Shown here: in pieces, positions 35,170 through 53,701 of the stretch
How the letters are laid out: every line of letters starts with the position of its first letter
How positions within the stretch are numbered: the first letter of the stretch is position 1
Notes under the pieces: model-generated
Told to the model about the DNA's origin: nothing
Database searches by the model: none
The model's input: the letters and a program-made list of their open reading frames with translations, nothing else
Translations under genes and position numbers: made by a program
NCBI RefSeq assembly: GCF_029892485.1
Contig: NZ_JARXVG010000008.1
Location: 62,001-126,000 of the forward strand
Length of the DNA stretch: 64,000 bases
Reading direction: 5' to 3'
DNA from: Variovorax boronicumulans
GTDB lineage: Bacteria; Pseudomonadota; Gammaproteobacteria; Burkholderiales; Burkholderiaceae_C

Positions 35170-36015
35170 TCAGTCCTTGGACGGGGGCCGCAGCTGCAGC
35201 CGCAGAGACAGGGTAGGCGAGAGCCGCAACGCGACCGGCGGGCCCGCGCCGTCGGACAGGTGCGCGAGCGACTCGAACAGGCTCAGCGCCTGCGCCATCG
35301 GGTTGATGCCCGAGAGCGACTTTGCCGCCTCCGAGTGCGCCGGCGTGTAGGTGGAAGCCGCTTCAAGGCTGTTGCCAGCCAGTGACCAGTCCAGTGCGGC
35401 GACGGTGCGTTCGCTGCGTTCGGGCGCGATCACCATCGCCACCGCCAGCAGGCCGCGGCTGTCGGTCACCGAGGTCAGCGGGCCGACCGTGGGCGTGTCG
35501 TAGCCCACCACCAGCACCGGGCTGTGGTCGGCCGCGCATTGCACGGCCGCTTCGAGCAGGCCGGTCGCGAAGCTGTATTCGAAGGCCGAGACCGAATTGC
35601 TGGCCGCCATGCAGCCGGTGCCGATGGTCCAGTAGCCCACCGCGGCGTTGTGCACCGAGTTGTGAAAGCGCGTGGGCGACAGCACCGTGGGGTCGGTGGC
35701 GAGCGTGCTGCACATGTAGTCGTTGATCGAGAGGTCGCCGTGCGCCGAGATGAACACGCAGGGCACGTCGGCTGCGTTGCGTCCCGAGGCCGCCATGGCG
35801 GCGGCGGCCACTTCGAGCGCCAGCGCCACGGTGTCGGGCGCGCGGCGGCGCTCGGCCGGGGCCAGCACCTGCGGCGCCGGGCGCTTGGCCGGCGGATCGG
35901 TCAGCGTGCCTTCGCCGCGGAACGCCGCGCGCGCGGCGTCCCAGCCGGGGAGGGTCGGCGTCCAGAAGGCCGGGCCTTCGATGTAGAGGGTGGGGGGCGT
36001 GGCGGTCGTGCTCAT
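35170..36015 (-). CDS. Beta-ketoacyl synthase chain-length-factor-like protein
   Basis: The 281-residue protein resembles only the N-terminal half of a ketosynthase (Ketoacyl-synt_2 type). It has FISAHGDLSINDYM, a region GTGCMAASNSVSAFEYSF where the active-site cysteine is kept, and VLVVGYDTPTVGPL. The two catalytic histidines of a full ketosynthase are absent. Such proteins pair with a ketosynthase in aryl-polyene-type clusters. Its ATG overlaps the ketosynthase stop by four bases, supporting a complex. Confidence 0.8.
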   Translation of the reverse strand: MSTTATPPTLYIEGPAFWTPTLPGWDAARAAFRGEGTLTDPPAKRPAPQVLAPAERRRAPDTVALALEVAAAAMAASGRNAADVPCVFISAHGDLSINDYMCSTLATDPTVLSPTRFHNSVHNAAVGYWTIGTGCMAASNSVSAFEYSFATGLLEAAVQCAADHSPVLVVGYDTPTVGPLTSVTDSRGLLAVAMVIAPERSERTVAALDWSLAGNSLEAASTYTPAHSEAAKSLSGINPMAQALSLFESLAHLSDGAGPPVALRLSPTLSLRLQLRPPSKD

Positions 36016-38805: not shown

Positions 38806-39678
38806 ATGTGCACACGATGCGAACGCCTCATTTCCGCCACCTCCGCCGCCTCCCCTGCCTCGCCCTGGCAGCCGCGAAGGGCCTTCCTGCTGGCCGCGGC
38901 CGGAGCGGCCGCCGCGGCTGTGGGCGGTCCGGCGTTCGCGCAGGTCAACGTCGGCAACGCCTCGGTGGCGCGCAACCTCGTGCCGGCAGACAAGATCGAG
39001 GCGGCCGGCGTCCAGCAGTACGGCCAGCTGCTAGCGCAGGCCCGTGCCAAGAACGCGCTCGCCGGCGACAACAACGCGCAACTGCAGCGGCTGCGCACCA
39101 TCGCGCAGCGGCTCATTCCCTTCGCCACGCCCTGGAACACCCGGGCGCGCGAATGGAAGTGGGAGGTCAACCTGATCGGCAGCAAGCAGATCAACGCCTT
39201 CTGCATGCCCGGTGGCAAGATCGCCTTCTTCACCGGCATCCTCGAACAGCTCAAGCTGAGCGACGACGAGGTCGCGATGGTGATGGGCCACGAGATGGCC
39301 CACGCGCTGCGCGAACACGCCCGCGCCCGCATGGCCAAGAGCGCCGGCACCGGCGCGGCGCTGTCCATCGGCGCGCAGCTGCTCGGCCTGGGCCAGGTGG
39401 GCGATCTGGCGGCGCGTGCCGGCACGCAGCTCATCACGCTCAAGTTCAGCCGCAGCGACGAGACCGAGGCCGACCTCGTGGGGCTCGAACTCGCGGCGCG
39501 CGCGGGCTATGACCCGAAGGCCTCGGTCTCGCTGTGGAACAAGATGGCCACCGCCTCGAAGAACCAGGGCGGGCTGAGCTTTCTGTCGACCCACCCGAGC
39601 GGCACCGACCGGATCGCGAAGCTCGAAGCGAACATCCCGAAGGTCGAAAGCCTCTACCGCAACGCCAAGCGCAGCTGA
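38806..39678 (+). CDS. Exported M48-family zinc metalloprotease
   Basis: This is a periplasmic metalloprotease of 290 residues. A signal-like region (QPRRAFLLAAAGAAAAAVGG, then AFAQV) could be read by the twin-arginine system. The zinc site is HEMAH at residues 162-166, and the third ligand is the glutamate in SDETEADLVGLELAARAGYD. LSTHPSGTDRI near the C-terminus matches the LoiP/YcaL-type M48 proteases, which act in envelope quality control. It is divergent from ampG. Confidence 0.9.
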   Translation: MCTRCERLISATSAASPASPWQPRRAFLLAAAGAAAAAVGGPAFAQVNVGNASVARNLVPADKIEAAGVQQYGQLLAQARAKNALAGDNNAQLQRLRTIAQRLIPFATPWNTRAREWKWEVNLIGSKQINAFCMPGGKIAFFTGILEQLKLSDDEVAMVMGHEMAHALREHARARMAKSAGTGAALSIGAQLLGLGQVGDLAARAGTQLITLKFSRSDETEADLVGLELAARAGYDPKASVSLWNKMATASKNQGGLSFLSTHPSGTDRIAKLEANIPKVESLYRNAKRS

Positions 39679-39698
39679 GCCTCAGGCTCCCTGCATGA

Positions 39699-39807
39699 CT
39701 CCCTCTCCCCTTGGGGAGAAGGCGGGGGTGAGGGCGGCGGCCTTCATATAAGGGGGCCGCTCCTCATCGCCGGCACCTCGCCCTCACCCCCCCAAGGGGA
39801 GAGGGAG
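39699..39807. repeat. Imperfect inverted-repeat element (about 109 bp)
   Basis: Left arm CTCCCTCTCCCCTTGGGG and GGGGGTGAGGG pair with the right arm CCCTCACCCC and CCCAAGGGGAGAGGGAG. The left side has about nine extra bases (AGAAGGCGG) in the middle. This GAGGGG-type repeat is common between genes in many proteobacteria and can form a long RNA hairpin. Here it follows the M48 protease gene and may act as its terminator. Confidence 0.7.
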
Positions 39808-39864
39808 CAAGTCCCCGATTGCCATCACGGCCCTCGTCCCGGCTGGCACATTGCTTGCATCTCG

Positions 39865-39878
39865 ACTTGTACACAAGT
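39865..39878. promoter_or_regulatory. Palindromic site upstream of the allophanate hydrolase operon
   Basis: Arms ACTTGT and ACAAGT flank AC, 11 bases before the first gene of the ureide operon. Short TTGT/ACAA dyads of this kind are typical of GntR-family dimers, and a GntR/FCD regulator is encoded as the last gene of the same run (52106). The pairing is an inference. Confidence 0.45.
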
Positions 39879-39889
39879 TTGGATGCCTG

Positions 39890-41608
39890 ATGATGGTGCA
39901 TGAACCCGACCCGCTGACCGCCGCTGCCTGGATCGCGAAATTCGCGGCGCCCGTGGCCGGTGCCGAAACTGCCGAGACCCCCGGCGTGACCCTGCCGCTC
40001 GCCGGGCTGCGCTTCGCGGTCAAGGACAACATCGATGTGGCCGGCGTGCCCACCACCGCCGCCTGCCCGGCCTTCGACCGCCGGCCCACGGCACATGCGG
40101 CCGTGGTGCAGCGGCTGCTCGAAGCCGGTGCATCGCTGGCCGGCAAGACCAATCTCGACCAGTTCGCTTGCGGCCTGAACGGCACGCGCTCGCCGTATGG
40201 CGAAGTGCCCAATGCCTTCGATGCCCGTTATGTCTCGGGCGGCTCCAGTTCGGGCTCGGCCTATGTGGTGGCCGCAGGCGAGGTCGACTTCGCCCTCGGC
40301 ACCGACACCGCCGGCTCGGGCCGCGTGCCCGCCGGGCTCAACAACATCGTCGGCCTCAAGCCCTCGCGCGGGCTGCTCAGCACCTTCGGCGTGGTGCCGG
40401 CAGCACAGAGCGCGGACTGCGTTTCGATCTTCGCGCGCACCGTCGCGCTGGCCGTCGACGTGATGCTGGCCGCCGCGGGCCACGACCCGCGCGACCCTTA
40501 TTCGCGCGACATCGCCATGCGCCGCAAGCCGTTTCCTGCGCACTTCAGCTTCGGCGTGCCGGACACGCTGAGCTTCTTCGGCGACACCGCTGCCGAAGAA
40601 GCCTTCCGCGATGCGCAGGCCAAGCTCGTCGCGCTGGGCGGCACGGCCGTCACCATTCCCTATGCGCCGCTCGCCGAAGCAGCCGCGCTGCTCTATGAAA
40701 GCGCGCTCGTCGCAGAGCGCTACGCCGCCGTGCGCGAGTTCTTCGATGCGCATGCCGACGAGGTGATCGAGCCGGTGCGCAGCATCCTCGCGAGCGGCAA
40801 AGGCTACGTGGCCGCGGACGTGTTCGAAGCGCAAACGCAATTGCGCGCCATCGCGCAACAGGTCGAACCGATGTGGCGCGACATCGACGTGCTGCTCGTG
40901 CCCACCGCGCCCACGCACTACACGCGCGAGCAGATGCGCGCCGACCCGGTCGTGCTCAACCGCAACCTCGGCGCGTACACCAACTTCGTCAACCTGCTCG
41001 ACTACGCGGCGCTCTCGGTGCCGAGCAGCCTGCGTGCGGACAGCCTGCCGTTCGGCATCACGCTGATCGGCCCGAGCGGCAGCGACCTCGCGCTGGCCGA
41101 CCTCGGCCAGCGCTACCACCACGCGACCGGCCTCACGCAGGGCGCGACCGGCCAGCCGCTCCCCGCGCCGCGCCCCGTGCCCTGTCTCGCGGCACCGGCA
41201 CCGCAGACCCTCGCCATCGCGGTGGTCGGCGCCCATCTCTCGGGCATGCCGCTCAACGGCCAGCTCACCGAACGCGGCGCCACGCTGCTGCGCGCCACGA
41301 CCACTTCGGCCGCCTACCGCCTCTTCGCGTTGCCCGGCACCACGCCGCCCAAACCCGGCCTGCAGCGCAGTGCGGAAGGCGGTGCCGCCATCGCGCTGGA
41401 GGTGTGGGCCATGCCCATCGCGCAGGTCGGCAGCTTTCTCGCTTTGATCCCGCCACCGCTGGGCCTCGGCAGTGTCGAGCTGGCCGACGGCAGCTGGGTG
41501 AACGGCTTCATCTGCGAGGGCCACGCACTGGCCGACGCACAGGACGTGACCCACCACGGCGGCTGGCGTGCCTATGTGGCGAGCCGTGCCGCCACCCTTT
41601 CCAACTGA
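39890..41608 (+). CDS. atzF: Allophanate hydrolase (AtzF type)
   Basis: This amidase-signature enzyme hydrolyses allophanate to ammonia and CO2. The 572-residue protein has the Lys-cisSer-Ser triad at K45 (FAVKDNIDV), S119 (SGGSSSGSA) and S143 (TDTAGSGRVP); the 74 and 24 residue spacings match AtzF as I remember it. A C-terminal domain of about 120 residues (LSGMPLNGQLTERGA, then ALEVWAMP) is the allophanate hydrolase C domain. ATG 39890 is chosen because upstream sequence has no similarity. No urea carboxylase is nearby, so its allophanate should come from biuret. It is the first gene of the operon. Confidence 0.92.
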   Translation: MMVHEPDPLTAAAWIAKFAAPVAGAETAETPGVTLPLAGLRFAVKDNIDVAGVPTTAACPAFDRRPTAHAAVVQRLLEAGASLAGKTNLDQFACGLNGTRSPYGEVPNAFDARYVSGGSSSGSAYVVAAGEVDFALGTDTAGSGRVPAGLNNIVGLKPSRGLLSTFGVVPAAQSADCVSIFARTVALAVDVMLAAAGHDPRDPYSRDIAMRRKPFPAHFSFGVPDTLSFFGDTAAEEAFRDAQAKLVALGGTAVTIPYAPLAEAAALLYESALVAERYAAVREFFDAHADEVIEPVRSILASGKGYVAADVFEAQTQLRAIAQQVEPMWRDIDVLLVPTAPTHYTREQMRADPVVLNRNLGAYTNFVNLLDYAALSVPSSLRADSLPFGITLIGPSGSDLALADLGQRYHHATGLTQGATGQPLPAPRPVPCLAAPAPQTLAIAVVGAHLSGMPLNGQLTERGATLLRATTTSAAYRLFALPGTTPPKPGLQRSAEGGAAIALEVWAMPIAQVGSFLALIPPPLGLGSVELADGSWVNGFICEGHALADAQDVTHHGGWRAYVASRAATLSN

Positions 41609-41629
41609 TCGACCGATCCAGGAGCCCCG

Positions 41630-42628
41630 ATGAGCACCCTCGAAAAATCTTCCGCATCACGCCGCCAGTTGTTGCAGGCCGGTGCCGCGGGCCTGGCCGT
41701 GCTGGCCGCGCCGGCCATCGTGCGCGCGCAGGCCGCGCCCAAGCTGCGCATCGGCTTCTGGCCTGTGGCTGCGGGCTTGCCTTTCTTCGCCGCGGTGGAC
41801 AGGGGTTACTTCAAGGAAGCGGGCCTCGACGTCGAGCCGCTGAAGTTCGCCGGTGCGCAGCAGGTGATGGAGGGCATGCTCGCGGGCCGCTGCGACGGCA
41901 GCGCGAACGGCACCGGCTCGGCCAACCTTGCCATCGGCGAGATCGCGCAGCCCGGCCTCTTCAAGATCTTCTGCACCAACCCGAGCAACGCGAAGTTCGT
42001 GCTCGACGAATTCATCGTCGCCAAGGACAGCCCCGTCAAGACGATGGCCGAGTTGGCCGGCAAGAAGGTCGCCTCGGGCCCCGGCATCCAGAACGTCACG
42101 CTGTGCAAGACCATGCTGGAGCGCGCGGGCGCCAAGGGCGCGGTCGTGAGCGAGCTGCCCATCGGCCAGCATGTGGCCGCGCTGGTCGCGGGCCAGGTCG
42201 ATGCCTGCTACACGCTGGAGCCCACAGGCACGGTCGGGCGCATGAACGGCACCACGCGCGTCATCGAGGCCGGCGTGGTCGCCAAATACATCCTCGGCGA
42301 TCCGATGGCGCCATGGCACGGCGGTGCGGCCAGCCTCATCACCGAGTTCATCAAGAAGAACCCGGAGGTCGCGAAGAAGTACATCGCCGCGTATGCGCGC
42401 GGCGTGGAGCTGGTCCGCACCAAACCCGACGATGCGCGCCAGCACATGAAGGGCTACACCGCCATCGAAGGCAAGCTCACGGCCGAAGTGCCGCTCGCCT
42501 CGTACATGCTCTACAACGAGTTCAAGCCGAGCGACGTCGCGTACTTCCAGAAGTTCTACGACCTGTTCACCGACAAAGGCATCTTCGAGAAGAAGGTGCT
42601 GGTGGACGGCCTCCTCTACAAGGCGTGA
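41630..42628 (+). CDS. NitT/TauT-type ABC substrate-binding protein
   Basis: This is a periplasmic binding protein of 332 residues. The signal SRRQLLQAGAAGLAVLAAPA followed by RAQAA looks like a twin-arginine type. The core belongs to the SsuA/TauA/NMT1-like group, with RIGFWPVAAGLPFFAAVDRG, YFKEAGLDVE and TLEPTG near residue 195. Such proteins bind sulfonates, nitrate, pyrimidine precursors or ureides. ATG 41630 has GGAG just upstream. It forms an importer with the next two genes. The ligand is probably a ureide, from context. Confidence 0.88.
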   Translation: MSTLEKSSASRRQLLQAGAAGLAVLAAPAIVRAQAAPKLRIGFWPVAAGLPFFAAVDRGYFKEAGLDVEPLKFAGAQQVMEGMLAGRCDGSANGTGSANLAIGEIAQPGLFKIFCTNPSNAKFVLDEFIVAKDSPVKTMAELAGKKVASGPGIQNVTLCKTMLERAGAKGAVVSELPIGQHVAALVAGQVDACYTLEPTGTVGRMNGTTRVIEAGVVAKYILGDPMAPWHGGAASLITEFIKKNPEVAKKYIAAYARGVELVRTKPDDARQHMKGYTAIEGKLTAEVPLASYMLYNEFKPSDVAYFQKFYDLFTDKGIFEKKVLVDGLLYKA

Positions 42629-42630
42629 CC

Positions 42631-43458
42631 ATGGCCGACGCAAGCACGACCACGGCCGCGCCGTGGACACCGCCGGCCAGCCTCAACGCCGTCGCGCCCA
42701 AGCCGCCGCTGCGCGACCGGATGCTGCCCTTCATCGGCCCCGTGGTGCTGTTCATCGTGTGGGACCTGGTGGTGCGCCTGGGCTTCATCAAGCCGATTCT
42801 TCTGCCCACGCCCGCCGACACCATCGCCGCGCTGATCACGGGTCTCGCGGGCGGGCCGCTGCTCACCGACTTCGCGATGACGGTCTGGCGCACCTTGCAG
42901 GCCTTTCTCATCGCGGCGGTGGTCGGCGTACCGCTGGGCGTGCTGCTCGGCAGCAACGAGAAGGCGTACCGCAGCGTGGAGTTCCTGATCGACTTCTTCC
43001 GCTCGACGCCGTCGTCCGCGCTCATTCCGCTGTTTCTGCTGATCTTCGGCGTGAGCGACGTCAACAAGATCGCCATCGCGGCCTTCGGCGCGCTGCTCAT
43101 CGTGGTGTTCAACAGCGCCTACGGTGTCATCAATGCCAGGAAGCAACGCGTGATGGCAGCGAAGGTCATGGGCGCCTCGCGCTGGCAGGTCTTCAAGGAT
43201 GTGCTGATCTGGGAGAGCCTGCAGCCCAGCTTCGTCGGCCTGCGCTCGGCGGTGTCGATGGCGCTGGTGATCGTCATCGTGGCCGAGATGTTCATCGGCT
43301 CCGACACGGGCCTGGGCCACCGCATCATCGATGCGCAGCAGGTGCTCAACGTGAAGAGCATGTATGCGGCAATCCTTGCAGCCGGTGCGCTGGGCTACGC
43401 GCTCAACATCCTCTTTCTCGTCGCCGAGCGCCGCATCGTGCACTGGAGCGGAAGATGA
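42631..43458 (+). CDS. ABC transporter permease (NitT/TauT type)
   Basis: This is the membrane subunit of the first importer, 275 residues with about six helices. The EAA loop that docks the ATPase is visible as [20 protein letters not shown]. The start ATG 42631 follows the binding-protein stop by two bases. Its own stop overlaps the ATPase start by four bases (ATGA), so the three transporter genes are tightly coupled. Confidence 0.9.
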
Positions 43459-44288
43459 AAGTCACACCCGACATCGTCATCAACGGCCCGGTGTATGCCG
43501 ACGTGCCCAAGCCGGTCTTCAAGCCCGGCCCCGCCGGCACGCACATCACCATCCGCGGCCTGACCAAGTACTTCGCGGGCTGGCCGCTGTACGAGAACTT
43601 CGACCTGGACATTCCCAAGCACCGCATCGTCTCGGTGTTCGGGCCCAACGGCTGCGGCAAGTCCACGCTCATCAACATGATCGCGGGGCTGGTGCCCATC
43701 GATTCGGGCGAGATCCTGTTCGACGGCAAGCAGCGCAAGGACACCAAGATCGGCTACGTGTTCCAGAACTACCGCGAGGCAATGTTCCCGTGGATGCGCA
43801 CCATCGACAACATCGCCTATCCGCTGAAGCTCGAAGGGCGCAGCAAGGCCGAGGTCGACCGGCGCATGGAGGAACTCGTGGCGTCGTTCGACGTGAAGTT
43901 CGACCTGAAGCGCTTTCCGTACGAACTCTCGGGCGGCCAGCAGCAGACCGCATCGATCATGCGCGCGCTCGCGCCCAACCCCGAGGTGCTGTTCCTCGAC
44001 GAGCCCTTCTCCGCGCTGGACTTCGAGATGACGCTCTTCATCCGCGAGAAGCTGCAGGAGGTGTTCATGAAGACCGGCACCACGATGCTGCTGGTGTCGC
44101 ACGACCTCGAGGAGGCCGTCTACCTCGCCGACGAAGTGCTGTTGCTGACCAAGCGCCCCACCAAGGTGGCCGAGATCCTGCGCTACGGCGATGCGCGCCC
44201 GCGCACCATCGAGACGCTCAGCACCGAGAGCTTCGTCGCGATGAAGAAGCTGAGCCTGGACATCTTCCAGCGCGAGGTGCGCCGATGA
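43455..44288 (+). CDS. ABC transporter ATPase (NitT/TauT type)
   Basis: This is the nucleotide-binding subunit of the first importer, 277 residues. Walker A is GPNGCGKST, the Q-loop is [13 protein letters not shown], the signature is [13 protein letters not shown], Walker B is [12 protein letters not shown] and the switch is LVSHDLEEA. The N-terminus has an extension of about 30 residues before the first strand. Its stop overlaps the AtzH-like start by four bases. Confidence 0.93.
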
Positions 44289-44665
44289 CGCTGGAGATCA
44301 ACCTTCCCGAGGTGCATGCCGAGGTCAGCGCCGTATTCGCGCGCTACGAAGAAGCGCTCGTGACCAACCAGCGCGCCGTGCTCGACGAACTGTTCTGGAA
44401 CAGCCCGCACACGCTGCGCTACGGCTTCTCCGAGAACCACTACGGCCACGCCGACATCCGCGCCTTTCGCGCTTCGCTGCCGGTGCAGAGTCCGCCGCGC
44501 GAGCTGCTGCGCACCGTCATCACCACCTACGGCCGCGACTTCGCGACCGCGAACGTCGAGTTCCGCCGCGAAGGCAGCCGCCAGGTCGGCCGCCAGAGCC
44601 AGACCTGGATACGCACCGCCGACGGCTGGCGCGTGGCCGCCGCCCACGTGAGCCTGCCGGCCTGA
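44285..44665 (+). CDS. AtzH-like protein (DUF3225, NTF2 fold)
   Basis: The 126-residue protein has an NTF2-like fold with [20 protein letters not shown] and [21 protein letters not shown], as in AtzH-family proteins. These are encoded beside AtzE- or AtzF-type amidases in cyanurate and biuret pathways. The exact reaction of AtzH I leave open. It overlaps the ATPase gene by four bases and lies in the same operon as the allophanate hydrolase, which supports a role in carboxylated-urea metabolism. Confidence 0.8.
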
Positions 44666-44709
44666 GCGGCACATTTTTTGCACCTCCCTTCACTTCTTGA
44701 AAGAACGCC

Positions 44710-45828
44710 ATGACTAGCCCACTCAATCGCCGCGATTCCCTCAAGTCCCTGGCCGCGCTCGGCGCCGCCGGCACCCTCGGAGGCTGGAGTGCCTTCGCCA
44801 GCGCACAGGCCAAGCCGCTGACCGTCGGCGTGATCTACGTCGGCGCGCGCGACGACTACGGCTACAACCAGGCGCACGCCATGGCCGCGGCCGAAATCAA
44901 GAAGCTGCCCGGCGTGAAGGTGGTGGAAGAAGAGAACGTGCCCGAGACTGCGGCCGTGCAGAAGACCATGGCCGGCATGATTTCGCAGGACGGCGCCAAG
45001 CTCCTGTTCCCCACTTCGTTCGGCTACTTCGATCCGCACATCCTGGCCGTGGCGCCCAAGTACCCCGACGTGCGCTTCTCGCACTGCGGTGGCCTGTGGA
45101 CCGAAGGCAAGCACCCGAAGAACGCGGGCAGCTTCTTCGGCTACATCGACGAGTGCCAGTTCCTCAACGGCGTGATCGCCGCGCACATGACCAAGAGCAA
45201 CAAGATCGCCTTCGTCGCCGCCAAGCCCATTCCGCAGGTGCTGCGCAACATCAACGCCTTCACGCTCGGTGCGCGCTCGGTCAAGCCGAACATCACCTGC
45301 AGCGTGATCTTCACCGGCGACTGGTCGATGGCCGTGAAGGAGGCCGAGGCCACCAACAGCCTGGCCGACCAGGGCTGCGACGTGTTCACCATGCATGTGG
45401 ACGGCCCCAAGGTGGTGGTCGAGACAGCAGCCAAGCGCGGCAAGATGGTCTGCGGCTACCACGCGAGCCAGGCCAAGCTGGCACCCAATGCGTACCTCAC
45501 GGGCGCCGAGTGGAACTGGCTCACCGCCTACAAGACCGCCATCGACGCCGCGCAGGCCGGCAAGCCGCATCCCAACTTCCTGCGTGGCGGCCTGAAGGAG
45601 GGCTACGTGAAGATGTCCGCCTACGGCCCCATGGTGCCGGACGCCGCGAAGAAGCAGGCCGACGACATCAAGGCCAAGATGATCGCGGGCACCTTCGACA
45701 TCTTCAAGGACGGCATCAAGGACAACAAGGGCGCGGTCGTGGTGCCCGCCGGCAAAGTCCTGAAGCAGACCGACCTGGAGCTCGAGAAGATGAACTACCT
45801 CGTCGAAGGCGTCATCGGCTCGGCCTGA
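44710..45828 (+). CDS. BMP-family ABC substrate-binding protein
   Basis: This is a periplasmic binding protein of 372 residues from the basic membrane protein (PnrA/Med) family, which typically binds nucleosides or purines. The signal NRRDSLKSLAALGAAGTLGG followed by ASAQAK looks like a twin-arginine type. The core has VGVIYVGARDDYGYNQAH and DVFTMHVDGPKVV. It starts a second, different ABC importer with the permeases at 45840 and 46898 and the ATPase at 49522. Confidence 0.9.
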   Translation: MTSPLNRRDSLKSLAALGAAGTLGGWSAFASAQAKPLTVGVIYVGARDDYGYNQAHAMAAAEIKKLPGVKVVEEENVPETAAVQKTMAGMISQDGAKLLFPTSFGYFDPHILAVAPKYPDVRFSHCGGLWTEGKHPKNAGSFFGYIDECQFLNGVIAAHMTKSNKIAFVAAKPIPQVLRNINAFTLGARSVKPNITCSVIFTGDWSMAVKEAEATNSLADQGCDVFTMHVDGPKVVVETAAKRGKMVCGYHASQAKLAPNAYLTGAEWNWLTAYKTAIDAAQAGKPHPNFLRGGLKEGYVKMSAYGPMVPDAAKKQADDIKAKMIAGTFDIFKDGIKDNKGAVVVPAGKVLKQTDLELEKMNYLVEGVIGSA

Positions 45829-45839
45829 GCTCGACCTCC

Positions 45840-46901
45840 ATGCGTCACGCGCTCAAGGAATTCGCCCTGCCGGTGTTCGCCATCGCGGCGGCGCTGCTGC
45901 TGTTCGGCGTGCTCGTCGCCTTTGCCGGCGTCGATCCGGTGGAAGTGTGGGCGACGCTCTTCAAGGGCGCGTTCGGCGACTGGTTCTCATGGCAGAACAC
46001 GCTGCAGCGCGCGGCGCCGCTGATGCTCACCGCGCTGTGCGTGGCGCTGCCCGCGCGTGCGGGGCTGATCGTCATCGGCGGCGAGGGCGCGCTGGTGTTC
46101 GGCGGCCTGGCCTGCGCGGCGCTGGCGCATGCGGTGCCGTTGCCCGCCAACGTCGTCGGCACGATGATCGTCTGCATCGCGGGTGCGCTGGCCGGCGCGC
46201 TGTGGATCTCGCTCGCGGGCTGGCTGCGCCAGTACCGCGGCATCAACGAAACCATCAGCAGCCTGCTGCTGGCCTACATCGCCATCGGCATCTTCAAGCA
46301 CCTGGTCGAAGGGCCGCTGCGCGATCCGGCGAGCCTGAACAAGCCATCGACGTACGCGCTGAACGACGGGCTGCTGATCGGCGGCATCGGTGGCTCCGAC
46401 GTGCACTGGGGCTTCGTGATCGGCGTGGTGGCCTGCCTCGGCCTCGGCTGGTGGCTGCGCGCGACCGCCTCGGGCTTTTCGGTGCGCGTGGTCGGCGGCA
46501 ATCCGCGCACCGCGCAGCTCGTGGGCCTGCCGGCCACGCGGCTCATCCTCGGTGCCTGCGGACTCGGCGGCGCCTGCGCGGGGCTCGCGGGCGCGGTCGA
46601 GGTGGCGGCGGTGCACACCAATGCCAATGCCTCGCTGATCGCGGGCTATGGCTACGCGGGCATCCTGGTGTCGTTCATCGCGCGGCACAACCCGGTGGCC
46701 ATCGTGCCGGTGGCGATCCTGTTCGGCGGCTTCGGTGCGGCGGGCAGCCTGCTGCAGCGGCGGCTCGGGTTGCCCGATGCCTCTGTGCTGGTGCTGCAGG
46801 GCATCGCGTTCGTGCTGATCCTCGCGAGCGAGGGCTTGCGCATGATCGACTGGAAGGCGCTGCGCACGCGCATGTTCCGCGCCTCGGGGAGCCCTGCATG
46901 A
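45840..46901 (+). CDS. ABC transporter permease (BMP/nucleoside type, first)
   Basis: This is a membrane subunit of 353 residues with about nine helices, of the BPD_transp_2 type seen in nucleoside importers (NupP-like). The stretches ARAGLIVIGGEGALVFGGL, YRGINETISSLLLAYIAIG and SGFSVRVVGGNPRTAQLVG are typical. ATG 45840 is 12 bases after the binding-protein gene. Its stop overlaps the next permease start by four bases. Confidence 0.9.
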   Translation: MRHALKEFALPVFAIAAALLLFGVLVAFAGVDPVEVWATLFKGAFGDWFSWQNTLQRAAPLMLTALCVALPARAGLIVIGGEGALVFGGLACAALAHAVPLPANVVGTMIVCIAGALAGALWISLAGWLRQYRGINETISSLLLAYIAIGIFKHLVEGPLRDPASLNKPSTYALNDGLLIGGIGGSDVHWGFVIGVVACLGLGWWLRATASGFSVRVVGGNPRTAQLVGLPATRLILGACGLGGACAGLAGAVEVAAVHTNANASLIAGYGYAGILVSFIARHNPVAIVPVAILFGGFGAAGSLLQRRLGLPDASVLVLQGIAFVLILASEGLRMIDWKALRTRMFRASGSPA

Positions 46902-47821
46902 CCGCTGACCAGTGGATCGCCCTCGTGGCCGGCATCGTCGGCGGTGCGTTGCGCGTGGGCGCACCTTTTCTTTTCGTGAGCCTGGGCGAATGCCTCACCG
47001 AGAAATCGGGCCGCATCAATCTCGGGCTCGAAGGCGTGCTGGTGCTGTCGGCGATGGCGGCCTTCGGCGGCGCCTACCTCACCGATTCGGCCTGGCTCGG
47101 TGTGCTGATCGGTGCGTTGGCGGGTGCGGTGCTCGCGCTGCTGCACGGCCTTTTGTGCTCGCTCGATCGCGTCAACGACGTGGCGACCGGCATCGCGCTG
47201 ATGCTGCTCGGCACGGGCCTCGCGTTCTACCTGGGCAAGCCATTGATCCAGCCGCAGGCGCCGCAGATCCCCGCGATACCACTGGGCTTCTGGAGCGACA
47301 ACACGGTGGTGCGCTCCGCACTGCAGCTCAACGCGCTGGTGCCCATCGGCATCGCGCTCGCGGTGCTGCTCTGGTGGGGCTTCGCACGCACCCGTGCCGG
47401 CCTGCTGGTGCGCATGGCGGGCGACTCGGCGCACGCCACGCGCGCGCTCGGCTATTCGGTCTTGGGCCTGCGCATCGCGGCAACCACGGCGGGTGGCTTC
47501 ATCGCCGGTCTCGGCGGCGCGTCGCTCACGCTGTTCTATCCGGGCAGCTGGAACGAAGGCATCTCGAGCGGCCAGGGCCTGATCGCCGTCGCGCTCGTGA
47601 TCTTTGCGCGCTGGAGCCCGCTGCGCTGCGTGGGCGCGGCCTTTCTCTTCGGCGGCGCAGGTGCCATCGGCCCCGCGCTGCAGTGGATCGGCATCGGCTG
47701 GGGCTACCACCTCTTCAACACCGTGCCCTATGTGCTCACGCTGGTGATCCTGGTGCTCACCTGCAAGCCGGGCAGCGCGGCCATCGGCAGCCCCGGCGAA
47801 CTTTCTTCGACAAGGAACTGA
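46898..47821 (+). CDS. ABC transporter permease (BMP/nucleoside type, second)
   Basis: This is the second membrane subunit, 307 residues, NupQ-like, with about eight helices. Motifs are ECLTEKSGRINLGLEGVLVL, DRVNDVATGIALMLLGTG and ARTRAGLLVRMAGDS. It pairs with the preceding permease (ATGA overlap). The C-terminal tail GSPGELSSTRN is soluble. The formamidase gene follows after five bases. Confidence 0.9.
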   Translation: MTADQWIALVAGIVGGALRVGAPFLFVSLGECLTEKSGRINLGLEGVLVLSAMAAFGGAYLTDSAWLGVLIGALAGAVLALLHGLLCSLDRVNDVATGIALMLLGTGLAFYLGKPLIQPQAPQIPAIPLGFWSDNTVVRSALQLNALVPIGIALAVLLWWGFARTRAGLLVRMAGDSAHATRALGYSVLGLRIAATTAGGFIAGLGGASLTLFYPGSWNEGISSGQGLIAVALVIFARWSPLRCVGAAFLFGGAGAIGPALQWIGIGWGYHLFNTVPYVLTLVILVLTCKPGSAAIGSPGELSSTRN

Positions 47822-47826
47822 ACACC

Positions 47827-48819
47827 ATGAGCGGTCTGGGTGGCCTCAACAAATCGGCGCACGGCGTCGTCGTCGGCCTGGTGCAGTTGCAACTGCCGAA
47901 CGTGAAGACGCCGGCCGACCTGGCCGCGCAGACGCAGCGCATCTGCGAGATGGTGGGCAAGGCGCGCCGCAACCAGTCGACGATGGACCTCGTGGTGTTC
48001 CCGGAGTACGCGCTGCACGGCCTCTCGATGGACACCAACCCCGAGATCATGTGCACGCTCGACGGCCCCGAGGTCGCGGCCTTCAAGCGCGCGTGTGTCG
48101 AGCACCGCATCTGGGGCTGCTTCTCGATCATGGAAGCCAACCCCGGCGGCAACCCGTACAACAGCGGCCTCGTCATCGACGACCAGGGCGAGATCAAGCT
48201 TTACTACCGCAAGCTGCACCCATGGGTGCCGGTCGAACCGTGGGAGCCCGGCAACCTCGGCATTCCGGTGTGCGACGGCCCCAACGGCAGCAAGCTCTCG
48301 CTCATCATCTGCCACGACGGCATGTTCCCCGAGATGGCACGCGAGGCTGCGTACAAAGGCGCCGACATCATCCTGCGCACGGCCGGCTACACCGCGCCGA
48401 TCCGGCATGCGTGGAAGATCACCAACCAGGCCAACGCCTTCTGCAACCTCGCCTACACCGCGAGCGTGTGCCTCTGCGGCAGCGACGGCAGCTTCGACTC
48501 GATGGGCGAGGGCATGTTCTGCAATTTCGACGGCACGGTGCTGGTCGAGGGCGGCGGGCGCGTCGACGAGATCATCACCGCCGAACTGCGGCCCGACCTC
48601 GTGCATGAGGCACGCACCGGCTGGGGTGTGGAGAACAACATCTACCAGCTCTACCACCGCGGTTATGTCGCGGTGAAGGGCGGCGCGCAGGACTGCCCCT
48701 ACACCTACATGCACGACATGGCCGCCGGCACCTACAAGTTGCCGTGGAGCACCGACGTGAAGGTGACCGACGGCACGAGCTGCGGCTTCGCGCCGCCGGA
48801 ACGCAACTACCAAGGATGA
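47827..48819 (+). CDS. amiF: Formamidase (AmiF-like nitrilase-superfamily enzyme)
   Basis: This nitrilase-fold amidase is expected to hydrolyse formamide to formate and ammonia. The 330-residue protein has the Glu-Lys-Cys triad at E60 (FPEYALHG), K129 (YYRKLHPW) and C162 (ICHDGMFPE); the Lys-Cys spacing of 33 matches H. pylori Ami[16 protein letters not shown] and [12 protein letters not shown] also fit. Its role next to biuret and allophanate enzymes is not obvious; it may act on an N-formyl intermediate. Its stop overlaps the next start (ATGA). Confidence 0.88.
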
Positions 48820-49514
48820 GCACCGCCATGACCACCATCGCTTCCGAGCCCTATGCCTGGCCCTACAACGGCGACCTGCGCCCCGAGAACACCGCGCTGA
48901 TCGTGATCGACATGCAGACCGACTTCTGCGGCAAGGGCGGCTATGTCGATGTGATGGGCTACGACCTGTCGCTGGTGCAGGCGCCCATCCAACCGATCGC
49001 GCGCACGCTCGCCGCATTGAGGCCGCTGGGCTTTCACATCATCCACACGCGCGAAGGCCACCGGCCCGACCTTGCGGACCTGCCGGCCAACAAGCGCTGG
49101 CGTTCGCGCCAGATCGGCGCCAACGGCGTGGGCATCGGCGACGACGGCCCGTGCGGCCGCATCCTCGTGCGCGGCGAGCCGGGCTGGGACATCATTCCCG
49201 AACTCGCGCCGCTGCCCGGCGAGGTGGTGATCGACAAGCCCGGCAAGGGCTCGTTCTATGCGACCGACCTGGAGCTCATCCTGCGCACGCGCGGCATCGA
49301 GAACCTGATCCTCGCGGGCATCACCACCGACGTGTGCGTGCACACCACGATGCGCGATGCGAACGACCGCGGCTTCGAATGCCTCTTGCTGTCGGACTGC
49401 ACGGCCGCCACCGACCACGGCAACCATCTCGCGGCGCTGAAGATGATCACGATGCAGGGCGGCGTGTTCGGCGCGCACACGACCTCGCAGCAGCTGCTGG
49501 CCGCGCTGGGTTGA
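48816..49514 (+). CDS. biuH: Biuret amidohydrolase (BiuH-like)
   Basis: This isochorismatase-fold hydrolase should cleave biuret to allophanate and ammonia. The 232-residue protein has the Asp-Lys-Cys triad: D32 in [15 protein letters not shown], a lysine in [10 protein letters not shown] (K141) and C174 in [25 protein letters not shown] and [12 protein letters not shown] closely resemble Rhizobium BiuH as I remember it. ATG 48816 overlaps the formamidase stop; ATG 48828 is the alternative and has a better-placed AGGATGAG site. Its product is the substrate of the AtzF-type enzyme in the same operon. Confidence 0.85.
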
Positions 49515-49521
49515 TGAACCC

Positions 49522-51120
49522 ATGAGCACCGTCGCTCTCCATGCCATTGGCGCGCTGCCCGCGGGCAGTGGTGCGCTCGCGCTCGATACCTACGAACTGA
49601 CCAAGCGCTTCGGCGCCTTCACCGCGATGGACCGCGTGACCATGCGCGTGGAGCCCGGCACGGTGCATGCGCTGCTCGGCGAGAACGGCGCCGGCAAGAG
49701 CACGCTGGTGAAGTGCGTGGCCGGTTTCCAGCGCGCGGAGGAGGGCAGCATCCTGATCGACGGGCGCGAGCAGGACATCGCCAACCCCATCGTCGCGCGC
49801 GCGCTGGGCATCGGCATGGTCTACCAGCACTTCACGCTGGCACCGGGCATGACGGTGGCCGAGAACCTGCTGCTGGCCGGCGGCAAGACGCCCCCGCTGA
49901 TCGACTGGAAGACCAAGCGCGCGGAGCTGAAGGCGTTTCTCGCCACCACGCCTTTCAGCCTGGACCTCGATGTGCGGCCGTCGGAGCTTGCGGCGGGCGA
50001 GAAGCAGAAGCTGGAACTGCTCAAGCAGCTCTACCTGAAGCCGCGCCTGCTGATCCTCGACGAGCCCACCTCGGTGCTCACGCCGCAGGAGGCCGACGAG
50101 GTGCTGGGCCATGTGCGCGAGTTCGCGCGCAGCGGCCTGTGCACCGTGCTCATCATCACGCACAAGTTCCGCGAGGTGATGGCCTATGCGGACAGCGTGA
50201 CGGTGCTGCGCAGGGGCAAGGCGGTGCATCACTGCCGCGTGGCGGACACGAGCCCGGCGCAGTTGGCGCAGGCCATGATGGGCGGTGAGGACGCGGTGCT
50301 TTCCGCGCCGCCTGCATCGCCCGTCGCCAGGAAGCCTGTGTCCGATGCGGCGCCCGTTGCGCTGAAGGTCGAAGGCCTCAAGGCACAGGGCGACCGCGGC
50401 ACGCTCGCGCTGCATGACCTGAGCCTTTCAGTGCGCGCGGGAGAAATCCTCGGCGTGGCGGGCGTCTCCGGCAACGGGCAGCGCGAACTGGTCGAAGCCC
50501 TGGTCGGGCAACGCCCGCGGCTGGCCGGCCGCGTGACCGTGATGGGCCAGCCCTACAACGCGCGCCGTGCCGAGAACCGCAGCCTCAAGGTGCGCAGCCT
50601 TCCCGAAGAGCCGCTGCGCAACGCCTGCGTGGGCGACTTGAGCGTCGCGGAGAACATGGCGCTGCGCGACTTCGACAGGCCGCCGTTGTCGCGCAGCGGC
50701 GTGCTGAATTTTCCGTTCTGGCGCAACCGTGCGCGCGAGTGGATCGCCGAGTACGGCGTCAAGACGCAGGGCGAGGGCGCGCCGATCCGCAGCCTCTCGG
50801 GGGGCAACGTGCAACGCGCGGTGCTGGCGCGAGAGTTGGCTGGCGACATCAACGTGCTGATTGCGGCGAACCCGGTGTTCGGACTCGACTTTGCTGCCGT
50901 GGCCGAAATCCATTCACGCATCGTGCAGGTGCGGGAGAAGGGCGGGGCGGTGTTGCTGATCAGCGAAGACCTCGATGAACTGCTGGAGCTAGCGGACCGG
51001 ATCGTCGTGATGAGCGAGGGGCGGATCGTGTTCGAGACTGCGGCTGCGGGAGCTGAAAGGCATGTGATCGGGGCGCACATGGGTGGTGGGCATCATGAGC
51101 CTTTGAAGGCGGTTGCATGA
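49522..51120 (+). CDS. Double ABC ATPase of BMP/nucleoside-type importer
   Basis: This is the ATPase of the second importer, 532 residues with two nucleotide-binding domains. The first has Walker A GENGAGKST, signature LAAGEKQKLELLK and Walker B LLILDEPTSVL. The second has a P-loop GVSGNGQREL, signature SLSGGNVQRAVLAREL and a Walker B IAANPVFGLD lacking the usual acidic pair, as is normal for NupO-like proteins. It lies beyond the two amidohydrolase genes rather than next to its permeases, mixing transporter and enzyme genes in one operon. Confidence 0.9.
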   Translation: MSTVALHAIGALPAGSGALALDTYELTKRFGAFTAMDRVTMRVEPGTVHALLGENGAGKSTLVKCVAGFQRAEEGSILIDGREQDIANPIVARALGIGMVYQHFTLAPGMTVAENLLLAGGKTPPLIDWKTKRAELKAFLATTPFSLDLDVRPSELAAGEKQKLELLKQLYLKPRLLILDEPTSVLTPQEADEVLGHVREFARSGLCTVLIITHKFREVMAYADSVTVLRRGKAVHHCRVADTSPAQLAQAMMGGEDAVLSAPPASPVARKPVSDAAPVALKVEGLKAQGDRGTLALHDLSLSVRAGEILGVAGVSGNGQRELVEALVGQRPRLAGRVTVMGQPYNARRAENRSLKVRSLPEEPLRNACVGDLSVAENMALRDFDRPPLSRSGVLNFPFWRNRAREWIAEYGVKTQGEGAPIRSLSGGNVQRAVLARELAGDINVLIAANPVFGLDFAAVAEIHSRIVQVREKGGAVLLISEDLDELLELADRIVVMSEGRIVFETAAAGAERHVIGAHMGGGHHEPLKAVA

Positions 51121-51203
51121 GTGCACTGCTTTTTGTCGGGAGTCCGCCCGCTCCGCGTCGCACACCGGGCTCCAAGGTGGGGTGTTCGCCGTCGATGCGT
51201 CCG

Positions 51204-51399
51204 CGGCGATGGGCTGTGTGTCCCCGGTCGGCCGTTGAGGCACCGCCGAGCAGCGCAGCGACAGGCGGATCAGGGCTCGCAGCTGTTTGAGCGCAACGCA
51301 GTGGAGCGAGTTCTGCGAGACCCCGCCTGTCGTGAGCAGCGCAGGGAAGCCCGAAGGGCCGGTGACGTCGGCCGGCCGGGGACACACAGCCCATCGCCG
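51204..51399. repeat. 196-bp element with 31-bp inverted terminal repeats
   Basis: The ends pair over 31 bases with one mismatch (51204-51234 and 51369-51399; core GATGGGCTGTGTGTCCCCGG). A second pair, CGACAGGCGG at 51259-51268 and CCGCCTGTCG at 51323-51332, nests inside, so the whole can form a long hairpin. It fills most of the 311-base gap between the ABC ATPase and the second isochorismatase gene, in which I see no other feature. The form fits a miniature non-autonomous element or a dispersed repeat. No target-site duplication was identified. Confidence 0.75.
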
Positions 51400-51431
51400 A
51401 GTCCCCGCCCTCAAAACCAAAGAGACGCCAC

Positions 51432-52100
51432 ATGCACATAGAAGCAAACCCCTTCGCCTATGAGTTCGAATTGGAAAAGACAGCCCTGGTCCTCATCGAC
51501 ATGCAGCGCGACTTCATCGAACCCGGTGGCTTCGGCGAAACGCTGGGCAACGACGTGTCGCTGCTCGAAGCCATTGTGCCGGCCACGAAGGCGGCTTTGC
51601 AGGCGTGGAGAAATGCAGGTGGTCTGGTGATTCACACCAGGGAAGCGCACAAGCCCGATCTCTCCGACTGCCCGCCCGCCAAACGCAACCGCGGCAACCC
51701 GAGCTTGCGCATCGGCGACGCGGGCCCGATGGGCCGCATCCTCGTCGCCGGCGCGCCCGGGAGCCAGATCATCGAGGCGCTCGCACCGGTCGACGGCGAG
51801 ATCGTCATCGACAAGCCCGGCAAGGGCATGTTCTACGCCACCGGCCTGCATGAGCTGCTGCAGCAACGCGGCATCACGCACCTGCTGTTCGGCGGCGTCA
51901 CCACCGAGGTCTGCGTGCAGACCAGCATGCGCGAAGCCAACGACCGCGGTTACGACAGCCTGCTGCTCGAAGACTGCACCGAGAGCTACTTTCCGGCCTT
52001 CAAGGCGGCGACGCTCGAGATGATCCGCGCCCAGGGCGCGATCGTCGGCTGGACCGCGCCGAGTGCGGCACTGCTCGCGGCGCTGGACAGCGCGAACTGA
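51432..52100 (+). CDS. Isochorismatase-family amidohydrolase, possible triuret hydrolase
   Basis: The 222-residue protein is a paralogue of the BiuH-like enzyme at 48816. Its catalytic set is D23 ([15 protein letters not shown]), K128 ([15 protein letters not shown]) and C161 ([19 protein letters not shown]). The substrate-facing N-terminal region differs from BiuH. Triuret hydrolase (TrtA), described in Herbaspirillum, is such a BiuH paralogue and acts just before biuret hydrolase, so that role is attractive. The assignment is an inference from family and context. RutB and nicotinamidase are alternatives. Confidence 0.75.
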
Positions 52101-52105
52101 GACCG

Positions 52106-52873
52106 GTGCCAGCGACTACCATCCCCCACGTGTCTACCGTCCGACCCCCCTCCGCTTCCACCGCCGCACCCGTTGCCGATACGGCCGTTTTCCGCACACG
52201 CGCCGACGAGGTCTATGCGCAGCTCAAGCGCGACGTGGCCGAGTTCATCCTCGTGCCCGGCGACCGCTTCACCGAGAACGAGATCAGCGACCGGCTCGGC
52301 GTGTCGCGCACGCCGGTGCGGCAGGCGCTGTTCCGGCTGCAGCAGGAGGGCTTTGTCGAAGTGCTGTTCCGCAGCGGCTGGCGTGTGCTGCCGTTCGACT
52401 TCGATCAGTTCGAACAGCTTTACGACCTTCGCATGGTGCTGGAGACCACCGCGGTGCACCGCATCTGCGAAGCCGACCATCGCGTCGATCGCAGCCTGCT
52501 CGACACGCTGGCCGGCATCTGGCTCGTGCCGGCGGTCGAGCGCAGCACCGACACCGCGCAGGTGGCGCAGTGGGACGAGGCCTTTCATTGCTCGCTGGTG
52601 GCCGCTGCCGGCAACGCCGAGATGGCGCGCGTGCACAGCGACGTGACCGACCGCATCCGCATCATCCGCCGGCTCGACTTCACGCAGCAGCCGCGCATCG
52701 AGGCCACTTACGACGAGCACGCGAAGATCCTCAAGGCGATCCGCGCGAACCGCGGAGATCAGGCCGCGATGCTGCTGCGCGCGCACATCGAGACCAGCCA
52801 GGCGGAGGTGCGCAAGATCACGCTGCACCAGGTGCATCTGGCGCGGCATGCGGTGAAGACGGCGCCGCGCTGA
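52106..52873 (+). CDS. GntR-family (FadR/FCD) transcriptional regulator
   Basis: The 255-residue regulator has an N-terminal winged helix (VYAQLKRDVAEFIL, then TENEISDRLGVSRTPVRQAL) and a C-terminal FCD ligand-binding domain (YDLRMVLETTAVHRICEAD, then WDEAFHCSLVAAAGN). GTG 52106 is five bases after the previous stop; GTG 52130 is another possible start. As the last gene of the ureide operon it probably regulates it. A TTGT/ACAA palindrome before the first gene is a candidate site. Confidence 0.87.
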   Translation: MPATTIPHVSTVRPPSASTAAPVADTAVFRTRADEVYAQLKRDVAEFILVPGDRFTENEISDRLGVSRTPVRQALFRLQQEGFVEVLFRSGWRVLPFDFDQFEQLYDLRMVLETTAVHRICEADHRVDRSLLDTLAGIWLVPAVERSTDTAQVAQWDEAFHCSLVAAAGNAEMARVHSDVTDRIRIIRRLDFTQQPRIEATYDEHAKILKAIRANRGDQAAMLLRAHIETSQAEVRKITLHQVHLARHAVKTAPR

Positions 52874-52924
52874 ACGGACGAATCAGAGCGATTGCCGGTC
52901 TGGCCAGGTGGGCTTCCAGGCTTG

Positions 52925-53701
52925 TTATTGTCTGGCTCGCACCGCAATTTGACGCGCAAGCGCTTCTCGCGCTCTTCCTGCCGCTTCCGCATCGACCCTC
53001 TCGGCCAGCACTTGCGCCAACTGGGTCAACTGACTGGCCGTGAGGCCCACGTTCATGCTGATGCCCATGTGCGATTGGACCTGCGAATCGGCGCCCTGCA
53101 ACGAGGACAGCATCGCGACGGTCGCGAGCTCACGGCTCTGCCAGTCGAGGTTGTCGCGCTCGAAGATGTCGCCGAACAGATGCGTCTTGAGGAATTCGTC
53201 GATGGCTGGCGCAAACTCGAAAAGCGCCCCTTTCACGGGACTGCCCGCAAGTTGCGTCTGATTGGTCGTGCCGGCAGCCAGCAAGGCATCGCCCCTGGGG
53301 ATGACGCGACCCGGAACCTGTCCCTGCGCGTCCTTCAGCCCGCGTTGCTTGCGAGCCTCGACCACCTTCATGAACTCACCCAGTGCATTCAGGCTGCGCG
53401 GGAATCCGGCATACGCATAGAGCTGGACCAGGATTTCCTTGGTGTCGTTCACGGTGAGTCCGGCGTCGAGGCCCTGGTTCAATGCAGCATGGAGACGAAG
53501 CATGTCGCCCGTTGCGCCGAACGCTGCGATCGGAACGATGGCCTGCTGGCGTACGGAGAGAGATTTCGAACTGGGGTGCTGCTGGGTCATGGCGGGTACT
53601 TTCTGTGCGGTTGCGTCTGCCTGGCTGAACAGGGCTGCAAAGCCCAGCGCAAGGCTGGCGCCGACGCGCGATGAACGACTAGCGTGCGGTGTACTGCTCA
53701 T
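52925..53701 (-). CDS. Exported carboxymuconolactone decarboxylase (CMD)-family protein
   Basis: The 258-residue protein has an N-terminal signal-like region ([20 protein letters not shown]) and two CMD repeats, one around residues 65-115 ([20 protein letters not shown]) and one around 175-235 ([20 protein letters not shown]). The CxxC motif of AhpD-type peroxidases is absent; there is no cysteine in the protein. A periplasmic location is likely. Its start overlaps the end of the upstream cupin gene by 23 bases, so the two are coupled. Confidence 0.82.

Follow-up and report, generated by a model that had tools for sequence, protein, structure and literature searches.

A predicted triuret and biuret scavenging operon in Variovorax boronicumulans and a formamidase that recurs with biuret hydrolase

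Introduction

The bacterial route from triuret and biuret to ammonia has so far been described from three hydrolases. In the triuret pathway set out in the main text of Tassoulas et al. 2020 (PMC7948467), TrtA converts triuret to 1-carboxybiuret and ammonia, carboxybiuret becomes biuret either spontaneously (with a half-life of about 20 min) or via TrtB, BiuH produces allophanate from biuret, and AtzF liberates the remainder. This core pathway is already known, and atzF, biuH and trtA together with a BMP/Nup-type importer have been published in nitrifiers. A neighbouring problem is the AtzEGH module of cyanuric acid breakdown: the accessible text of the 2018 AtzH paper (PMC6219798) reports atzGEH clusters with allophanate hydrolase and ATP-binding cassette (ABC) genes in Variovorax and Rhodoferax, states that genomic context gave little evidence of the role of the atzGEH cluster, and leaves the origin of AtzEGH outside cyanuric acid breakdown open. 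Here we analyse a 64,000-nucleotide stretch of Variovorax boronicumulans (contig NZ_JARXVG010000008.1, positions 62,001 to 126,000), which we call the window, and in it a gene cluster at 39890-52873 that carries this core pathway along with an AtzH-family protein and a formamidase.

The cluster consists of 13 closely spaced genes, all on the + strand, in the order atzF, an NMT1/SsuA-like importer (three genes), atzH, BMP, nupB, nupC, amiF, biuH, nupA, trtA and gntR; the nearest locus found is from V. boronicumulans, with 94-99% identity over the 12 genes seen. We find that it is very probably a nitrogen-scavenging operon for triuret and biuret working through TrtA, BiuH and AtzF, a function predicted from the sequence and its genomic context.

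Results

The three hydrolases of the core pathway

A preliminary description of this DNA had named a ureide-scavenging operon with two ABC importers, a BiuH-like hydrolase and a paralogue of it, AtzF, an AtzH-like protein and a formamidase, and every one of these parts is present in the cluster. The chain that it proposed, from triuret through biuret and allophanate to ammonia, is supported by curated models, by matches in the PDB and by diagnostic residues. The product of 48828-49514 passes the NCBIfam BiuH equivalog NF050097 (419.3 bits against a cut-off of 370) and shares 77% identity with the solved BiuH of Rhizobium leguminosarum. It keeps the Asp-Lys-Cys triad, the second Lys, the Gln and the BiuH-type Tyr/Tyr/Ser/Asp/Val positions (D28, F33, Y39, Y45, K137, K140, S142, D168, C170, Q210 and V213), and it is, as had been described, a biuret hydrolase BiuH, its activity being predicted.

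The second isochorismatase-fold enzyme, encoded at 51432-52100 on the + strand, falls below the same BiuH cut-off with 252.4 bits. Its best PDB match is Herbaspirillum TrtA (6XIX, 316 bits; the best BiuH chain reaches 215.4), to which it is 68% identical, compared with 51% to the BiuH of the window; these are the two reference enzymes that the preliminary description had wished to see compared. Six of the seven TrtA-type residues are kept (F35, N41, E160, Y187, Q202 and I205, present as F34, N40, E159, Y186, Q201 and I204), and the seventh, A134, is replaced by Met (M133). In the main text of the TrtA paper (PMC7948467) the A134S change is not deleterious and Met is absent from the variants given there. 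By the sequence criteria applied, this gene is a triuret hydrolase TrtA with predicted activity, so that the earlier placing of a second isochorismatase-fold enzyme in a triuret chain stands, while the label of BiuH paralogue gives way to an established enzyme family.

RutB and the nicotinamidases belong to the same fold family, and if the two enzymes were of either kind they would act in pyrimidine or NAD metabolism instead; the preliminary description had itself named such a resemblance as an outcome that would speak against it. The scores for the two enzymes, 117.7 and 97.7 bits for RutB (cut-off 377.95) and 38.1 and 31.3 bits for the nicotinamidase model PRK11609 (cut-off 174), lie far below the cut-offs and the PDB ranks BiuH and TrtA first, and we give this reading a negligible chance. 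TrtA-like proteins of 57-63% identity also occur in genomes with no BiuH match (G406, G462, G577, G606, G276, G280 and others), possibly with a separate specificity.

AtzF, the allophanate hydrolase at 39890-41608 (+ strand, 572 aa, an amidase with a C-terminal domain; PF01425, PF21986), scores 740.3 bits against a TIGR02713 cut-off of 511.05 and carries its Ser-Ser-Lys triad at exactly the residues previously claimed, K45, S119 and S143. We rejected urea carboxylase as the source of its allophanate. In the whole draft assembly of the organism (6.67 Mb in 49 contigs, a draft status that limits all absences given here) no urea carboxylase exceeds the curated cut-off (best match 556.9 against 1303.85 bits, over model positions 1-442 of 1201), so that the earlier remark on the absence of this enzyme holds genome-wide at that cut-off. 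The same draft has no AtzE over its cut-off (best AtzE model match 276.8 against 425.75 bits) and no match at E 1e-120 to an AtzE query taken from a trtA locus. The urea carboxylase and AtzE models each exceeded their cut-offs in one of 14 control genomes. A role of the operon in using cyanuric acid derived from s-triazine herbicides might be considered, since that pathway too employs BiuH and AtzF and some related operons do have atzD. We regard this as very improbable: AtzD has no match in the draft genome (G000), while the positive control (W01) matched, so that cyanuric acid would require an unrelated hydrolase.

Conservation of the operon

We surveyed 80 trtA loci, the best of 575 confirmed, a nearest-to-query choice that favours Burkholderiales, and scored their gene content by tblastn with thresholds that we set ourselves. 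NupA is found in 72 of these loci, BiuH in 70, NupC in 67, BMP and NupB in 65 each, AtzH and GntR in 55 each, AtzE and the NMT ATPase in 34 each, AtzF in 32, AmiF in 31, SBP1 in 23, the cupin in six and AtzD in four; contig ends or the 10-kb flank cut many loci, so that for outer genes such as AtzF the count is a minimum. The block BMP-NupB-NupC-(AmiF)-BiuH-NupA-TrtA recurs in alpha- and betaproteobacteria, and because the same gene content and order are found across many other species we can exclude chance as the origin of this arrangement. The nucleoside-type importer, previously called unusual, is on these numbers an ordinary member, and its combination with the hydrolases has been published in nitrifiers (PMC12625717).

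Two further genome samples were used. The family sample comprises 250 genomes of the window's family, searched for BiuH at E <= 1e-70 and for AmiF at E <= 1e-100; the phylum sample comprises 398 genomes, searched for AmiF at E <= 1e-80. Of the 15 AmiF genomes found in the phylum sample, three (G000, G020 and G114) belong to the family sample too.

A formamidase that occurs with BiuH

Between nupC and biuH lies amiF (47827-48819, + strand), whose product scores 573.1 bits against the NF009803 cut-off of 406. Its best PDB matches are 5G3O and 2DYU, and it keeps Glu-Lys-Cys as E60, K129 and C162, at 51% identity to the AmiF of Bacillus cereus and 48% to that of Klebsiella. Residues 224-226 read DSM, in place of the YYF of both those enzymes and the SYF of an aliphatic amidase. 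Across 49 distinct sequences of this kind (including one from a Paraburkholderia plasmid, L117), Glu60, Lys129 and Cys162 are invariant and positions 224-226 are DSM in 47, NSM in one and DSI in one; the canonical formamidases in this alignment number two (B. cereus and Klebsiella). Judged by these alignments, the BiuH-linked formamidases look like a subfamily.

The link itself is seen in both genome samples. In the family sample BiuH is present in 65 of 250 genomes and AmiF in 33 (34 copies), and all 34 copies start 692-1114 bp from a BiuH start; none of the 185 BiuH-less genomes has AmiF at the family threshold. In the phylum sample AmiF occurs in 15 of 398 genomes and BiuH in 26, all 15 falling among the 26, and none of the 372 BiuH-less genomes has AmiF at the threshold used there. 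Start-to-start distances in these 15 are about 1.1 kb or less in eight, 2.3 kb in one and 4.6-9.5 kb in five. Fisher tests of the co-occurrence give p of about 1e-20 to 1e-23, figures that overstate the significance since they count genomes of shared ancestry as independent. A TrtA-like match (E <= 1e-72) accompanies AmiF in all 15 as well, and because the TrtA-like class is wider (35 of 398 genomes) BiuH is the closer partner.

Among the trtA loci with both NupC and BiuH (n = 67), AmiF is present in 30 and lies between the two in all 30, and in the other 37 the NupC-BiuH gap is 0-254 bp; the 31st AmiF of the survey (L019) sits at a contig end, before BiuH. The distances of AmiF, BiuH and NupC correlate across 32 operons with r of 0.732-0.747, a value that none of 2000 permutations reached. 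Elsewhere the position varies: in G491 (L113) AmiF lies 3' of NupA, and in five genomes of one family (L106-L110) it lies upstream of BMP, with intervening open reading frames in L106, L107, L109 and L110 and none listed in L108. In L106 and L107 one of these frames, on the opposite strand, encodes an allantoate amidohydrolase that exceeds its model cut-off. A TadA/GuaD-like deaminase of about 160-186 aa is conserved 3' of NupA in all five. The combination with a formamidase, which the preliminary description had found unusual, therefore does not stand as an oddity: it is recurrent and statistically linked to BiuH in both samples.

Relatives of these genes are also found on plasmids. An AmiF relative is present in 494 plasmid records, in 369 of which its identity is below 60%, and BiuH in 177, the two lists being counted separately. 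An Enterobacter hormaechei plasmid (pMB5921_1, IncFIB/IncFII; L116, 7034-16657) carries a compact triuret-type operon with IS1 elements on both sides, comprising atzF, BMP, two permeases, a formamidase, two isochorismatase-family hydrolases around an ABC ATPase, and GntR; plasmids of Klebsiella, Citrobacter and Pantoea carry BiuH relatives too.

AtzH, AtzE and the carboxybiuret step

The AtzH/HpxZ-family protein at 44285-44665 (+ strand; PF11533) scores 198.2 bits against the HpxZ NF033625 cut-off of 135, and its best PDB match is AtzH 6BJT, whose Tyr22 and Arg46 correspond to Tyr21 and Arg45 here. Equivalents of these two residues are kept in all 58 AtzH rows, with or without AtzE. In the 80 trtA loci we see AtzE with AtzH in 32, AtzE without AtzH in two, AtzH without AtzE in 23, a cupin instead in six and none of these in 17, and the cupin is never found together with AtzE or AtzH (0 of 80).

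The AtzE of these loci appears to be genuine: seven of seven amidases from them exceed the AtzE cut-off (655-704 against 425.75 bits), and AtzE is on the strand of trtA in 33 of 34 loci. AtzG is less certain, because a small open reading frame before one such AtzE matches the AtzG-like HpxX model at 31 bits (cut-off 70) and another has no match. Since 1-carboxybiuret is both the substrate of AtzEG and the product of TrtA, a second route is probable in these loci, from carboxybiuret to dicarboxyurea to allophanate, bypassing biuret, and AtzEGH in the trtA loci probably processes the product of TrtA. AtzE is found (E <= 1e-120) in 58 genomes of the family sample, 44 of them with BiuH: 37 have it within 25 kb of BiuH (on mixed strands) and seven on other contigs, and the 14 that lack BiuH indicate that AtzE has other uses as well.

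In a tree of the 58 AtzH rows, the window and three atzE-less Variovorax loci (L005, L006 and L008, in which, as in the window, atzH and the ATPase gene before it share 4 bp) form one group (support 100/99), nested in a group of seven that includes three atzE loci (95/84). The simplest reading is that the clade of the window lost atzGE and kept atzH. This suggests that AtzH alone would decarboxylate carboxybiuret, the TrtB reaction, and that activity is plausible because the step ascribed to AtzH in the Pseudomonas sp. ADP pathway is the decarboxylation of a carbamate. The retained gene could also be pictured as a non-catalytic vestige of the lost module, with carboxybiuret decarboxylating by itself; the spontaneous reaction noted in the TrtA paper (PMC7948467), the place of AtzH after AtzEG in the ADP pathway (PMC6219798, in its accessible text) and the long stem of the window clade (0.33) would all fit. 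Yet the gene is intact, still overlaps its neighbour, and keeps its Tyr and Arg in all four loci of the clade, and an AtzH-family gene lies directly 3' of trtA in eight of the 80 loci (including Herbaspirillum and Paraburkholderia), none of them with AtzE; we therefore think a vestige rather unlikely. A small ChrR-type cupin lies directly 3' of trtA in six of the 80 loci and in a Rhizobium locus (L114, 16998-17351), with no AtzE or AtzH seen there.

Importers, regulator and surroundings

Two importers of different classes and a GntR regulator had been described, and all are present (+ strand throughout). Importer 1 comprises an NMT1/SsuA-like periplasmic binding protein (41630-42628; PF09084, 65.1 bits; SsuA_fam 93.3 bits, below the cut-off of 163.5), a permease (42631-43458; PF00528, no NCBIfam family above cut-off) and an ATPase (43455-44288; PF00005, with none above cut-off among the 25 listed of its 180 NCBIfam matches). 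Importer 2 comprises a BMP/PnrA-type binding protein (44710-45828; PF02608, 144.9 bits; B6-type BMP model 60.7 bits, below the cut-off of 400), NupB-like and NupC-like permeases (45840-46901 and 46898-47821; both PF02653) and a NupA-like ATPase with two ABC domains (49522-51120; NF047930 437 bits, below the cut-off of 670). The GntR/FCD-family protein at 52106-52873 (PF00392, PF07729; best NCBIfam match 92.3 bits, below 271.5) is, from its position, the probable regulator of the operon.

Ten of the 12 junctions between genes measure -4 to +21 bp, and the remaining two are atzH-BMP (44 bp) and nupA-trtA (311 bp). The latter spacer contains a dispersed palindromic repeat outside the pathway (51204-51399, 31-nt inverted arms), with 31 full or partial matches in the same genome, counting the query and its two arms. 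Spacers of 274-593 bp at this junction are also seen in four other Variovorax loci (L014, L015, L016 and L022). We found no conserved operator in the nupA-trtA spacer on comparing the window with eight Variovorax-type loci, a set in which spacers longer than 60 bp occur in four and align poorly, and no sigma-70-like site in 39600-53100, where 1.1 are expected. Upstream, on the - strand, lie genes for a beta-ketoacyl synthase (36012-37217) and a major facilitator superfamily transporter (37361-38728), with an M48 peptidase gene (38806-39678) between the latter and the operon; downstream are a carboxymuconolactone decarboxylase-family gene, a cupin gene and a LysR regulator.

Discussion

Our preferred reading is that the operon collects nitrogen from triuret and biuret. 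One or both ABC importers would bring small ureides into the cell, where TrtA would take a terminal amide off triuret to give 1-carboxybiuret and ammonia; 1-carboxybiuret would lose CO2, spontaneously or via the AtzH-family protein, for which we propose the role of 1-carboxybiuret decarboxylase, to give biuret; BiuH would convert biuret to allophanate and ammonia; and AtzF would split allophanate into two ammonia and CO2. The GntR protein is probably ureide-sensing. For the TrtA, BiuH and AtzF reactions this scheme draws on the literature on homologues, and for homology, diagnostic residues, gene order and genome-scale linkage on the present analysis; the role of AtzH in this operon, the importer substrates, the GntR signal and the formamidase substrate are steps that we infer.

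A tentative role can be proposed for the formamidase. Oxonate or azauracil-type triazines give rise to formyl-ureides. In our reading AmiF is a co-inherited member that works with BiuH, most likely releasing formate (and ammonia) in one of two ways: from formyl-capped ureide fragments, where direct removal of the formyl group would give biuret for BiuH, or from the formamide that would remain once BiuH or TrtA has trimmed such fragments from the terminal amide. In the main text of the TrtA paper (PMC7948467) formylurea is the second-best substrate tested for TrtA, at 0.3% of the triuret activity, and in the open literature searched this is the only paper that combines formylurea with biuret.

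Several observations weigh against this reading in one or other of its parts. No model above cut-off names a substrate for either importer. AtzH has been studied after AtzEG in the ADP pathway and gave no speed-up of BiuH plus AtzF on biuret, as reported in the accessible text of PMC6219798, which is expected if AtzH acts before biuret, although that falls short of proof. The ChrR-type cupin is a candidate carboxybiuret-handling protein and so a rival to the AtzH family for the TrtB role. In one of the 15 AmiF genomes of the phylum sample (G342) AmiF and BiuH are on separate contigs, the other 14 having them on a shared one. Of the 67 trtA loci with NupC and BiuH, 37 lack AmiF, as do 32 of the 65 family-sample genomes with BiuH, and because it is absent so often it is best seen as an optional member, dispensable to the core pathway. 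Finally, the 80% identical AmiF on the Paraburkholderia plasmid L117 stands beside a cytosine permease and amidases, and BiuH is absent within 12 kb of it.

This last case bears on whether the formamidase has any chemical link to biuret, or is simply one more enzyme for amide nitrogen, placed in the operon because the same nitrogen starvation makes it useful. The curated model does call AmiF a formamidase, a related enzyme of a distinct type (48% identity) stands after urtABCDE, a urea-type importer, on a Klebsiella plasmid, and L117 is a member of the subfamily itself. A general nitrogen-scavenging enzyme should, however, also occur alone, and AmiF was found, at the thresholds set, in none of the BiuH-less genomes of either sample (0 of 185 and 0 of 372), while its placement differs by lineage and the co-occurrence with BiuH persists. 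An unlinked formamidase is thus possible, but we lean against it.

Returning to a formamidase that works with BiuH, the gene context points to purine or triazine breakdown products: the importer is of the nucleoside type, allantoate amidohydrolase and deaminase genes lie nearby in related clusters, and L117 has a cytosine permease. Taken jointly, the two boldest proposals, that the BiuH-linked AmiF is a new hydrolase of formyl-capped ureides (N-formylbiuret or formylurea) feeding BiuH and that AtzEGH arose for triuret and was later recruited for cyanuric acid, remain speculative and are improbable as a pair. If they are true, these operons collect a whole urate-oxidation family, made up of triuret, of formyl-ureides derived from oxonate or from triazines of the azauracil type and, in operons with atzD, of cyanuric acid.

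The restriction of AmiF to BiuH genomes in both samples means that a substrate or by-product of the route may have gone unrecognised; the linkage names a single enzyme to test and points to a missing branch of the pathway. Likewise, atzE and atzH are frequent in trtA loci, which suggests what the AtzEGH module may do in nature, and the clade of the window offers a natural experiment, with atzGE gone and atzH kept. In the open literature that we searched, the tie of AmiF to BiuH is not described, nor is it reported that atzE and atzH recur beside trtA or that this clade has lost atzGE; within the same literature we found no relevant paper on biuret and formamidase together and none on HpxXYZ. 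The main text of the BiuH structure paper (PMC5806882) contains none of the terms operon, transporter, formylurea, triuret or formamid-.

Comparison with known systems

The closest described system is that of Herbaspirillum sp. BH-1 (PMC7948467), which has the same TrtA, BiuH and AtzF in one operon and the same order of reactions, and whose main text lacks the terms formamid-, AtzH and ABC transport. The locus of a Herbaspirillum metagenome-assembled genome (L081) also has both importers, an AtzH-family gene and gntR as in the window. Compared with Herbaspirillum, the window adds the formamidase between nupC and biuH, and its atzH follows the NMT importer where that of Herbaspirillum follows trtA.

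The biuH/trtA clusters of nitrifiers (mSystems 2025, PMC12625717) share atzF, biuH, trtA and bmpA-nupABC with the window, and gntR is among the genes in the legend of the synteny figure; the accessible text does not contain the term formamidase. The ammonia-oxidiser cluster differs from the window in having trtB, with urease on the contig, and the comammox cluster, which has no trtB, differs in having allFGHK. With the atzDGEHF operon of Pseudomonas sp. ADP, as given in the accessible text of PMC6219798, the window has the AtzF and AtzH families in common; its genome, in contrast, has no AtzD or AtzE above threshold and would use biuret through BiuH. In the literature searched two papers mention AtzE together with triuret, and PMC6219798 is neither of them.

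The BiuH locus on a plasmid of Rhizobium leguminosarum bv. viciae 248 (L114) has the order BMP-NupB-NupC-formamidase-BiuH-...-NupA-TrtA, as in the window, with GntR nearby; unlike the window it has atzD, the ChrR-type cupin after trtA in place of an AtzH-family gene, and a second importer of the CmpA/NrtA type. Lastly, the canonical AmiF enzymes of Helicobacter pylori, B. cereus and the Klebsiella plasmid share Glu-Lys-Cys with the formamidase of the window, and the subfamily to which the latter appears to belong differs from them by DSM in place of YYF and by its tie to biuH.

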